Shown here in pieces: positions 25,210 to 34,291 of a stretch of DNA of 64,000 bases; the stretch's first letter is position 1, and every line of letters starts with the position of its first letter. The notes beneath the pieces are model-generated. The model saw only the letters and a program-made list of their open reading frames with translations, made no database searches and was not told where the DNA came from. The translations under genes were made by a program, and so were the position numbers. The DNA comes from a virus: positions 31,071 through 95,070 of IMG/VR virus record IMGVR_UViG_3300033233_000020. One strand, written 5' to 3'.

Positions 25210-25334
25210 TACCAGCCAATAAGCTGTCGTTCACCCCAAACCCCTTGCTATCACTACGTTCTTATACCCATTTAGGCTAAGTATCTAGGTGGGGCAAATA
25301 AGATTGTCGTAGCAATTAGGGCTATGTATAAACA

Positions 25335-25359
25335 GGGGCTGCGCATCTGTAACACGCAG
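25335..25359 (+). repeat. Leader hairpin family 1, copy 2
   Basis: Same GGGGCTGCGCATC block and CGCAG partner as at 24871, again 24 bases before an ATG. Because the element lies inside the longest open frame, it argues that translation begins at 25384 and not at 25324. Confidence 0.65.
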
Positions 25360-25383
25360 ACAACTCACTTGCCTATCAACATC

Positions 25384-25605
25384 ATGGATTACAACTTTTG
25401 GGATCCTAGTAAAGACTCCCTTTGGGGAGTTTACGAGAAAGGACAATGCGTTTATGTTTATTGCTCCAAGCTTGAAGCTCAATTTGCTGCCGAAGACATT
25501 GGCGGTCAATTGGTTGAAGTCAGCAATCAAGAGCTGCCAGACTTTTGGTTTTACAACGCAGGTCTCAATTTAATTCGCACAGGTTGTTATCACCAAGTCT
25601 ACTGA
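25384..25605 (+). CDS. Small unrecognised early protein
   Basis: 73 residues from ATG 25384 (MDYNFWDPSKDSLWGVYEKG). Beta-rich with aromatic residues and no membrane segment. The start is chosen because the conserved leader hairpin precedes it. No domain recognised. Confidence 0.7.
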   Translation: MDYNFWDPSKDSLWGVYEKGQCVYVYCSKLEAQFAAEDIGGQLVEVSNQELPDFWFYNAGLNLIRTGCYHQVY

Positions 25606-25614
25606 ACTGTAGTA

Positions 25615-25677
25615 CTCCGTTTGCGGAGGGCCAGGTGCAACTCCTGGCTTCAGTTATTGCCTCCAGCGGAGATAGGC
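25615..25677 (+). ncRNA. Triple-hairpin leader element, copy A
   Basis: Hairpin 1 CTCCG-TTTG-CGGAG; hairpin 2 GCCAGG-TGCAACT-CCTGGC with a 7-base loop; linker CAGTTATTGC; hairpin 3 CTCC-AGC-GGAG. It begins just after a stop codon and ends 21 bases before the next start. Copies B and C share the order, loop sizes and linker while stem bases differ. No T tract follows, so it is not a terminator. Confidence 0.65.
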
Positions 25678-25698
25678 ACCGCACACACGGAGAACACC

Positions 25699-25917
25699 GT
25701 GACCAACACTACTACAGCTACACTTCCTACCAGGGAAGAGCTAGCTAACACGGCCTACGATCTCATCCAGTTCTGGATGGAGTCAGGCCACTCGCAACTA
25801 CTAAGCCGTGAGCAAGCACTTGAGATTGCCGCATGGGGTCTCAAGATTGCTGGCGAACGCGAGTTGCAAGCCCAAGTTCTTGCGGAGCTTGTAGAGCTTC
25901 CCGAGAACTACGGCTGA
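25699..25917 (+). CDS. Small helical early protein
   Basis: 72 residues from GTG 25699 (MTNTTTATLPTREELANTAY), a helical charged protein (EQALEIAAWGLKIAGERELQ). The upstream frame to 25621 overlaps hairpin element A, so GTG is preferred. Function unknown. Confidence 0.6.
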   Translation: MTNTTTATLPTREELANTAYDLIQFWMESGHSQLLSREQALEIAAWGLKIAGERELQAQVLAELVELPENYG

Positions 25918-25980
25918 TCCGTCAAAGCGGAAGGCAGGGTGCAATTCCCTGCTCAGCAATTACCACTCACTGAGAGTGGT
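25918..25980 (+). ncRNA. Triple-hairpin leader element, copy B
   Basis: TCCG-6-CGGA; GCAGGG-TGCAATT-CCCTGC; linker CAGCAATTACC; ACCACTC-ACTGA-GAGTGGT. It starts directly at the stop of the upstream gene and ends 13 bases before ATG 25994. Hairpin 2 loop keeps the TGCAAYT pattern of copy A with different stem pairs, which is covariation. Confidence 0.7.
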
Positions 25981-25993
25981 CAACTCAACCGTC

Positions 25994-26182
25994 ATGTCTA
26001 ACTACAAAACATTCAGCTTCGCTGTCACAGGCGTTGTAGCAACCATGGCTATTGTTTGTCACCTTGGTGTACAAGCACTAGACAAGGCTACAGCCGAACA
26101 ATGCAAGACACATGCATGGCCTCAGGTTGCACATCAAGTCCACATGGACTGGTGTGCAGACAATGGCTATGCAACCAACTGA
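25994..26182 (+). CDS. Small single-pass membrane or exported peptide
   Basis: 62 residues. N-terminal hydrophobic segment (FSFAVTGVVATMAIVCHLGV) then a short polar domain with two Cys (EQC and DWC) that could form a disulphide outside the cytoplasm. A longer frame from 25976 overlaps the leader hairpin and is less likely. Function unknown. Confidence 0.65.
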   Translation: MSNYKTFSFAVTGVVATMAIVCHLGVQALDKATAEQCKTHAWPQVAHQVHMDWCADNGYATN

Positions 26183-26183
26183 G

Positions 26184-26246
26184 TCCGTAAACACGGCACT
26201 GGGAGGTGTAAGTCCTCCCCCAGTTATTACCACCCACTGAGGGTGG
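26184..26246 (+). ncRNA. Triple-hairpin leader element, copy C
   Basis: CCG-6-CGG; GGGAGG-TGTAAGT-CCTCCC; linker CAGTTATTACC; CCACCC-ACTGA-GGGTGG. It lies between stop 26182 and ATG 26261. Hairpin 3 has the same ACTGA loop as copy B with several changed base pairs. Confidence 0.7.
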
Positions 26247-26260
26247 TTACACCACTGACC

Positions 26261-26413
26261 ATGGCTATCCGCAAAGCTATCGCCACTCAACTCTCCAATG
26301 CTGCCAAGGCTTTGGAGAAAGACCAGACTAAAGAGCAAGCCGGTAGGTTAATCAACAGCATGCGCATTGGCTTAGCTAATGTCATCATGCCTAACATACC
26401 GCTGGCTAAATAG
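26261..26413 (+). CDS. 50-residue helical peptide
   Basis: ATG 26261 to TAG 26413: MAIRKAIATQLSNAAKALEK then a helical, moderately basic tail ending PNIPLAK. Bounded by a leader element on each side, which supports it as a real gene despite its size. Function unknown. Confidence 0.6.
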   Translation: MAIRKAIATQLSNAAKALEKDQTKEQAGRLINSMRIGLANVIMPNIPLAK

Positions 26414-26451
26414 TACGCACGTACTACTCCCCTCCCACCCGCAAGGGTGGG
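26411..26451 (+). promoter_or_regulatory. Two leader hairpins
   Basis: TAGTAC-GCAC-GTACTA (includes the preceding stop codon) and CCCACCC-GCAA-GGGTGGG. No T tract follows. They end 22 bases before the next ATG, matching the placement of other hairpins in this module. Confidence 0.6.
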
Positions 26452-26473
26452 CACACACCCCTAACTAATCACC

Positions 26474-29705: not shown

Positions 29706-29737
29706 CTTATTTACACTATAGATGTTAATATTTTAAC

Positions 29738-29795
29738 CCTGGGCAACCACAATCGCTAAGCACATAGCTTAGAAAGATATGGTGTAAGTCCCAGG
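29738..29795 (+). ncRNA. Leader element with TGTAAGTCCC motif, copy D
   Basis: Outer stem CCTGGG/CCCAGG encloses CTAAG-7-CTTAG and the block GGTGTAAGTCCCAG, which resembles the hairpin 2 block of copy C and a related sequence at 34243. It ends 16 bases before ATG 29812. Confidence 0.55.
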
Positions 29796-29811
29796 ATCAA
29801 CCCTCAATTCA

Positions 29812-30096: not shown

Positions 30097-30140
30097 GATA
30101 CTTGTAATCCGAGTAACTACCATCTATTCATAATCCGAAT

Positions 30141-30197
30141 AACAAAGGGCTGGTACGCATTAGTACCTAAGCCTGGTGCGGCCAGGCACCCTTTGTT
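30141..30197 (+). ncRNA. Predicted three-way-junction RNA in a 360-base gene-free gap
   Basis: P1 AACAAAGGG/CCCTTTGTT (9 bp) closes two perfect hairpins, GGTAC-GCATTA-GTACC and GCCTGG-TGCGG-CCAGGC. The loops contain GCA and TGC, which could kiss. It is flanked upstream by a direct repeat TAATCCGARTAAC (30105 and 30131) and downstream by TCCC-AAC-GGGA (30209-30219) and the palindrome CACTGGCCAGTG (30229-30240). The rest of 30097-30455 has a C-rich tract near 30320 and GTAAGTC/GACTTAC at 30370-30400, with no gene. No match to a known riboswitch or ribozyme is recognised. Confidence 0.6.
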
Positions 30198-30455
30198 AAA
30201 CGACGGAATCCCAACGGGAAGAATAGATCACTGGCCAGTGAGGTCTCGAGAACCACACAAAGTCTAACTTTTAATCAAACTTAACTAACTCAGTACAAAT
30301 ACCCAATGAGACTAAGAGATCCCCCCTGCACCCCCCTGGCAACCCACCACCAGCACTATTAGATTTAGAAGTAAGTCCCATGTAATACACATAAGACTTA
30401 CTTGCTCTTCCTTGACATCCCTGATAGACTACCAACTCATTCACCCACTCATCTC

Positions 30456-33622: not shown

Positions 33623-33847
33623 ATGACTGAACACACTGACGAACAACTCCTAGCCATGGCAATGGCAAACTTAGGAGGATACATTCATGACAACTCACCA
33701 CACTATGTATTAATAGAAGATCCACGTAACGAAGATGACTTTGATACGTGGAGCTATGGTACAGAACCATTACCTAATGACCACACTTGGCGTTCTACAT
33801 CAGTCGATGTAGATGTAAGCCCAAGTGACGCAGACGTGACGGAATAG
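33623..33847 (+). CDS. Small acidic protein whose 3' end overlaps a tRNA
   Basis: 74 residues (MTEHTDEQLLAMAMANLGGY), acidic at the C-terminus (VDVDVSPSDADVTE). Its last six codons, including the TAG stop, are the first 18 bases of the tRNA-Leu gene. Translation and tRNA maturation from the same transcript would compete. No domain recognised. Confidence 0.65.
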   Translation: MTEHTDEQLLAMAMANLGGYIHDNSPHYVLIEDPRNEDDFDTWSYGTEPLPNDHTWRSTSVDVDVSPSDADVTE

Positions 33848-33915
33848 GTATACGTAACGCACTTAAAATGCGTCGGCCATTGGCCTTGCGGGTTCAAGTC
33901 CCGCCGTCTGTACCA
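33830..33915 (+). tRNA. trnL-UAA: tRNA-Leu(UAA) with encoded CCA
   Basis: 86 bases. Acceptor GCAGACG pairs with CGTCTGT (first pair G-U); D arm ACG/CGT with loop GAATAGGTATA; anticodon stem ACGCA/TGCGT with loop CTTAAAA (anticodon TAA); class II variable arm GGCC-ATT-GGCC; T arm GCGGG-TTCAAGT-CCCGC; discriminator A; CCA encoded. This matches a leucine tRNA of cyanobacterial type. It would read UUA codons, which are used in the AT-rich phage genes. Confidence 0.95.
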
Positions 33916-34227: not shown

Positions 34228-34253
34228 TGGGCATTGCTTGCATGTAAGTCCCA
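34228..34253 (+). ncRNA. Leader element with TGTAAGTCCC motif, copy E
   Basis: TGGG/CCCA outer pairing around TGC-TT-GCA, containing ATGTAAGTCCCAG as in copy D. It lies 38 bases before ATG 34292. Short, so support is weaker than for copies A-C. Confidence 0.4.
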
Positions 34254-34291
34254 GACAGTAAACCAACTGTAATTTATCTTCAATCAACACA

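Follow-up and report, generated by a model that had tools for sequence, protein, structure and literature searches.

Junctions between small genes in a cyanophage genome carry what is, with near certainty from comparison of related sequences, a family of structured RNA elements in which a tRNA-like three-way junction is followed by a separate 3' module (P4). The three local members lie in a 64,000-nucleotide stretch of DNA (the window) from an IMG/VR virus record of 95 kb. The virus is a relative of Synechococcus phage S-EIVl (KJ410740), with terminase pieces 88–92% and DNA polymerase 89% identical. In the family fold, a closing stem P1 (RRCUG/CAGYY) bounds a junction that contains two hairpins, P2, which resembles a D arm, and P3, which resembles a T arm; the junction is followed by N-UU and then by P4.

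The local elements

A sequence-only reading of the window had described three copies of a row of three hairpins, and the copies lie where it placed them (25615, 25918 and 26184; copies A, B and C in Table 1). Its first hairpin (CCG..CGG) corresponds to P2, and its second, whose resemblance to a T arm proved real, is P3: the stems around the 7-nt loop (GCCAGG/CCTGGC, GCAGGG/CCCTGC and GGGAGG/CCTCCC) differ, yet all pair. The linker CAGYWATTRCC is likewise present. The closing stem P1 had been missed, and the hairpins are not a simple succession but a P1-closed tRNA-like junction with a separate module behind it. A third structure does follow in every copy, with the expected loop ACTGA in copies B and C, whereas in copy A it is an H-type pseudoknot. 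Each copy sits between small genes, as had been read, starting on the stop codon of one small ORF and ending 13–16 nt before the next start.

Minimum-energy folds of all three cores consist of P1, P2 and P3 (z-scores −2.2 to −2.9), and copy B folded together with P4 reaches −4.2. Copy A belongs to a class with a GTAGTA joint that is present in related phages; in copy C the elbow pair is A-U in place of G-C. Open reading frame starts listed inside the elements (25621, 25976 and 26243) were dismissed as mechanical.

Table 1. Features of the three elements, in window coordinates
Feature	Position	Strand	Detail	Basis
Copy A, tRNA-like part	25601–25655	+		sequence, minimum-energy fold, CM match
Copy A, P1	25601–25606 / 25649–25654	+	ACUGAA / UUCAGU	
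Copy A, P1, alternative register	25605–25609 / 25651–25655	+	AACUG / CAGUU	
Copy A, P2	25615–25619 / 25624–25628	+		
Copy A, P3	25630–25635 / 25643–25648	+	T-loop UGCAACU 25636–25642	
Copy A, embedded stop of upstream gene	25603–25605	+	UGA	
Copy A, A-UU and pseudoknot-type P4	25656–25682	+		both helices covary in 32 distinct sequences
Copy A, P4 helix 1	25659–25662 / 25674–25677	+	GCCU / AGGC	
Copy A, P4 helix 2	25666–25669 / 25679–25682	+	GCGG / CCGC	
Copy A, start-codon hairpin	25686–25701	+	CACGG-AGAACA-CCGUG, with GGAG motif; GTG start 25699–25701	sequence, variants in related leaders
Copy B, tRNA-like part (main class)	25912–25958	+		covariation set, CM match, minimum-energy fold
Copy B, P1	25912–25916 / 25954–25958	+		
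Copy B, P2	25917–25921 / 25928–25932	+		
Copy B, P3	25933–25939 / 25947–25953	+	T-loop UGCAAUU 25940–25946	
Copy B, embedded stop of upstream gene	25915–25917	+	UGA	
Copy B, predicted elbow pair	25927 / 25942	+	G-C	G19-C56-type covariation in family
Copy B, A-UU and P4	25959–25980	+		sequence, fold, N-UU-RCC conservation
Copy B, P4 hairpin	25962–25980	+	ACCACUC-ACUGA-GAGUGGU; next gene's ATG 25994	
Copy C, tRNA-like part (GTCCG class)	26177–26225	+		sequence, CM match, fold, elbow covariation
Copy C, P1	26177–26181 / 26221–26225	+		
Copy C, P2	26185–26188 / 26193–26196	+		
Copy C, P3	26201–26206 / 26214–26219	+	T-loop UGUAAGU 26207–26213	
Copy C, embedded stop of upstream gene	26180–26182	+	UGA	
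Copy C, A-UU and P4	26226–26247	+		sequence, fold
Copy C, P4 hairpin	26229–26247	+	ACCACCC-ACUGA-GGGUGGU; next gene's ATG 26261	

Family size and covariation

The pattern GGTGYAANYCC-N2-10-CAGNNATTRCC matched more than 119 stretches of viral contigs, most of which show the same extended element, and a structural scan of 1.2 Mb of related viral DNA recovered 216 unique elements, with none in shuffled DNA; members are almost all metagenomic. The short motif TGYAANTCC alone occurs at chance level in the window (8 seen, 5 expected). Because the search pattern itself had fixed part of the conservation, we ran an independent scan that required only the T-loop, paired stems and an in-frame stop in P1, with no requirement on the 3' side. 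This returned 144 elements against none in shuffled DNA, and TTRCC follows 139 of them.

Covariation among homologues is strong. In a set of 78 unique ungapped cores (A2; P1 in columns 1–5/43–47, P2 in 6–10/17–21 with loop UNNAAG, P3 in 22–28/36–42 with loop UGCAANY, then A-UU-RCC), pairing holds in 97.2% of cells and both sides have changed in 191, while sliding the partner strand by 1–3 columns lowers pairing to 24–48%. Conserved U-G and G-U pairs occur, and the first pair of P1 is the least conserved (paired in 62 of 78). A tree-aware test with a home-made null gave five significant covarying pairs, all of them P3 base pairs and none off-structure; P1 and P2 stay below significance because they vary too little in the main class.

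Likeness to tRNA

Stacked on each other, P1 and P3 amount to 12 bp in 71% and to 11–13 bp in 97% of the 144 elements, 12 bp being the combined length of the acceptor and T arm of tRNA; the 12 layers are kept while the split between the two stems moves (5+7, 6+6 or 7+5). Some members depart from this, with 13 layers in the stack or with ATCRAAT as the T-loop. The T-loop fits U54-x-Y56-R57-A58-N-Y60, closed by G53-C61. Its position 56 and the final base of the P2 loop covary as in a 19-56 contact (C with G, U with A), and position 55 does so with the P2-loop base just before that one as in an 18-55 contact (G55 with A or C, U55 with G); one member with U55U56 (L030) has G18A19. These two contacts between D-loop and T-loop form the tRNA elbow (PMC4810234). 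The 19-56 rule holds without exception among correctly parsed members with a P2 hairpin, and a complete scan of the viral contigs for U56 gave no counter-example among real members; five of the six C-C rows returned by the script were hairpin misreadings when checked by eye, and the remaining rows off the rule come from classes whose D region differs.

Divergent members have canonical T-loops (TTCGATT, TTCGACT or TTCAATC) or four arms, and for one of them tRNA is the best Rfam match, at 18.8 bits below the gathering score of 29. We rejected the reading of the elements as tRNA genes, since ARAGORN calls none of them and recognises no full cloverleaf, and the Rfam tRNA score is sub-threshold. 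The anticodon arm is absent in most classes, which disfavours a role in decoding; some classes have a second hairpin. N-UU follows the stack in nearly all members and none has CC directly after N, so that the features of an RNase Z substrate are present: an elbow, an acceptor-like stem and a discriminator without CC after it. The elements are intergenic and lack CCA, and a CCA end would be possible only after cutting. ATTGCC was also considered as a general signature after true tRNAs and set aside, being mostly coincidence with the next gene.

The 3' module

About half of the P4 modules are hairpins, as in copies B and C, and the other half are H-type pseudoknots, as in copy A. In 32 distinct pseudoknot sequences, 99.2% of cells pair, with the second helix at 100%, against 46% at most in slid controls. 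P4 is tied weakly to either neighbouring gene and is thus not confidently assignable to the downstream one. An intrinsic terminator was rejected, as mixed sequence without a U run follows P4 and about half of the modules are pseudoknots. Many pseudoknot leaders then show a further hairpin that pairs the GTG or ATG start with bases beside the GGAG motif; related leaders have CACGG/CCGTG or CATGG/CCATG, the start codon covarying with its partner.

Embedded stop codons and gene neighbours

The element begins inside the upstream coding frame, whose in-frame stop sits in the 5' strand of the acceptor-like P1, in most members 3 nt into the element. Upstream of the P1 UGA, the frame is open for at least 40 codons in 87% of the first set. 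Over 181 elements the stop is UGA in 155, UAA in 24 and UAG in 2, and changes from UGA to UAA are compensated on the opposite strand of P1 (L108, L066, L016). The next start lies 57–93 nt past the stop in most members. Stop-codon readthrough was discarded, as neither frame nor open length past the stop is conserved.

Across 176 elements, 65 families of upstream genes and 63 of downstream genes meet in 141 combinations. Members of one upstream family tend to have the same element class (0.499 versus 0.323 permuted, 0/1000), which is not so for downstream families (0.327, 446/1000 permutations); the contrast is large, though obtained with rough start choice, class labels and family clustering. 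Because the stop codon of the upstream gene lies within the element and the two assort together, the element is as much a 3' end of that gene as a leader of the next one. The suggested family holds up as a phage RNA family absent from Rfam.

Distribution among cyanophages

The family is carried by relatives of S-EIVl. In these phages each record holds 1–7 copies, all in one small-gene array, and the S-EIVl genome has its own. Most carriers encode a polymerase and a terminase like those of S-EIVl (the terminase at 64–92% identity, in some cases interrupted by inserts); two others have a distant polymerase alone (37–38%). The matches to terminase (KJ410740 54083–56617; G005, G016) and DNA polymerase (G007) fall into separate pieces within a single longer open frame, an arrangement reminiscent of inteins. 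The matches listed from bacterial genomes include chance matches and AdoCbl-II riboswitches and no true member, and plasmids gave no match.

Related elements precede the capsid gene in T7-like cyanophages (the metagenomic L059 group, S-CBP42, P60, Syn5 and S-TIP28), with less standard forms in the same junction of P-SSP2 and S-CBP3. The L059 group, S-CBP42, P60 and Syn5 have the same 12-nt strand followed by A-UU-GCC at this junction; the P60 element, which has an 8-nt loop, was read by eye. In NATL1A-7 the capsid-gene junction holds a real tRNA-Gly, and in other contigs such an element stands before psbA. The capsid and psbA elements may be homologous to the S-EIVl-clade family or convergent with it. 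In five T7-like cyanophage sequences (L254, L257, L258, L261 and L375) the tRNA-like element is replaced by a pre-capsid hairpin whose conserved loop reads CACCTCAGAGTCGGA; behind it come ATTGGC-like sequence and an additional capsid leader that is conserved and structured. In S-TIP28, P-SSP2 and SS120-1 the capsid gene has a Glutamine-II riboswitch a few hundred bases upstream (L255 210–262, L260 394–447, L254 381–432).

Proposed mechanism and alternatives

The shape of the elements makes it quite possible, though we advance it tentatively, that each is a tRNA mimic that punctuates a polycistronic phage mRNA between two genes and is cut by the host's RNase Z. P1 could fold after termination, when the ribosome has departed; for as long as the upstream gene is being translated the stem would stay open, and cutting may, speculatively, be ribosome-gated. 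RNase Z, the tRNA 3' endonuclease, would recognise the elbow and the 12-bp stack and cut after N, with predicted sites after A25959 in copy B and A26226 in copy C. The upstream message would keep its stop codon and gain a tRNA-like 3' end that the CCA enzyme might extend, and the 5' end of the downstream message would now lie two nucleotides before P4, with the message's own ribosome-binding site beyond that module; so placed, P4 would protect this message from 5'-end-dependent decay. RNase Z holds the tRNA elbow with a flexible arm, cuts after the discriminator and is inhibited by a C directly after it (PMC7479834, PMC4810234). The archaeal enzyme needs a mature 5' end (PMC7479834), a requirement that would call for RNase P to act first and thus weighs against RNase Z alone.

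RNase P might itself read the mimic, cutting at the 5' edge of P1, alone or with RNase Z, and freeing a tRNA-like RNA of about 48 nt. RNase P measures 12 bp from the T-loop, the distance to the 5' edge here, and cuts model substrates made of acceptor and T arm (PMC11143913); as cited there, the bacterial enzyme also cuts the tRNA-like structure of TYMV (via PMC11143913), and RNase P stacks on the 19-56 pair where this is exposed (PMC4810234). We nevertheless consider this unlikely: the first P1 pair, at the very edge, is the least conserved (62/78), no G is favoured at +1, and a 5' cut would strip the message of its stop codon, making it non-stop. RNase Z is preferred since its cut, on the 3' side, would part the genes with P4 at the new 5' end. 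The single-stranded AUU could also be a target of RNase E, which needs no tRNA fold, and neighbouring junctions in the same phage have plain hairpins, which means that tRNA likeness is not needed at every junction.

The stop inside the fold, the 57–93 nt to the next start, the many next genes without a Shine-Dalgarno motif and the ribosome's binding of tRNA elbows (PMC4810234) would also suit a translation element, in which the tRNA-like fold holds or recruits the terminated ribosome for reinitiation on the next gene. This is improbable given that element class assorts with the upstream gene and not with the one whose start would be driven, that there is no conserved frame relation to that start, and that many downstream leaders have a GGAG motif of their own. 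Selection mainly as homology for small-gene shuffling, as in T4-type cassettes or integron attC sites, would fit the 141 gene-family combinations and the travelling of the element with its upstream gene; it would preserve neither pairing amid stem change nor the covariation of tertiary contacts, and the conserved U-G and G-U pairs argue for RNA over single-stranded DNA, making this quite improbable as the main cause, although shuffling may be a by-product of the elements. Least of all do we expect a riboswitch, with the junction binding a metabolite to control the downstream gene. A three-way junction docked loop to loop does stand ahead of a start codon, about half of the elements continue into a pseudoknot and a start-codon hairpin, and the T-loop hairpin string is common to some AdoCbl-II riboswitches; the main-class junction, however, has no unpaired nucleotides for a pocket, the downstream genes are unrelated small ORFs (63 families), and there is no cobalamin core.

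Extending punctuation beyond the S-EIVl clade is more tentative again: unrelated cyanophages may share one signal, stop-bearing elbow mimics that tRNA-processing enzymes of the host would cut only when the upstream ribosome is gone and that would give every gene in a shuffled cassette array, along with capsid and psbA, a processed, end-protected mRNA of its own.

Relation to known RNAs

This is apparently an undescribed phage RNA family, absent from Rfam: in Rfam 15 no match to the elements was at or near gathering score and none up to E=10 was credible, the only matches elsewhere being true tRNAs and Glutamine-II, and no earlier description was found in the open-access literature. A cobalamin (AdoCbl-II) riboswitch was rejected, with no covariance-model match on the elements up to E=10 and no cobalamin core. 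The AdoCbl-II riboswitch (RF01689) shares with the phage family a T-loop hairpin with GGUGCAAAUCC, but its topology differs, and there the common string lies in a weakly conserved hairpin.

The best-known tRNA mimics are those of plant RNA viruses, and the best-known tRNA punctuation is mitochondrial; in plant mitochondria, t-elements are tRNA-like folds that act as RNase P and RNase Z processing signals. Repeated intergenic hairpin cassettes border shuffled small genes in T4-type phages, but those cassettes combine an early promoter with a stem-loop, whereas the present family is defined without a promoter and its fold is tRNA-like. Early genes of T7 are separated by intergenic RNase III sites, which split the polycistronic mRNA and leave end-protecting hairpins; these too are structured intergenic signals, but long imperfect duplexes rather than an elbow and a 12-bp stack.

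Mitochondrial transcripts likewise have tRNAs or tRNA-like folds between the genes of one transcript, as processing signals for RNase P and RNase Z (PMC3593211, PMC10941002). The phage elements differ in belonging to DNA phages, in mostly lacking the anticodon arm, in holding the upstream stop within the acceptor-like stem and in being followed by a dedicated hairpin or pseudoknot; their processing, moreover, is predicted. Viral tRNA-like structures such as that of turnip yellow mosaic virus also reproduce the D-loop/T-loop elbow in an otherwise different fold (PMC4810234, PMC5723415). An elbow mimic within a predicted viral transcript, which marks a viral tRNA-like structure, is found here as well; those structures, however, are found at the 3' terminus of RNA virus genomes and finish with CCA, while the phage elements are intergenic, repeated, carried by dsDNA phages and followed by N-UU-RCC, with no CCA end.

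The family, hundreds strong, would combine tRNA mimicry and punctuation in DNA phages of an ecologically important host. If so, mRNA processing in cyanobacterial phages could be tested in cultured phages (Syn5, P60, S-CBP42 and S-EIVl), and the elements would form a naturally occurring set of minimal substrates for RNase Z and RNase P, suggest a route to separate expression of tandem small phage genes and serve as a sequence mark for locating shuffled accessory-gene arrays.

Other structures in the window

The next junction (26408–26456) is laid out alike but is not tRNA-like: the stop codon lies in a hairpin, UAGUAC-GCAC-GUACUA, which is followed by CCCACCC-GCAA-GGGTGGG and then a start. The TGTAAGTCCC strings at 29781 and 34243, once taken for fragments of the element, exist but lack the fold and are not members. 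That at 29781 belongs to a second conserved intergenic structure (29732–29796; CCTGGGCA..ACCA-hairpin-TGGT..GTAAGTCCCAGG) with about 80% identity in S-EIVl, a shorter form of which lies near 34228–34254. Two long noncoding stretches, 30100–30262 and 25221–25360, have no Rfam match, are strongly conserved with S-EIVl and look structured. A true tRNA-Leu(UAA) gene, followed by CCA, lies at 33830–33915, about 7.6 kb downstream of the elements.
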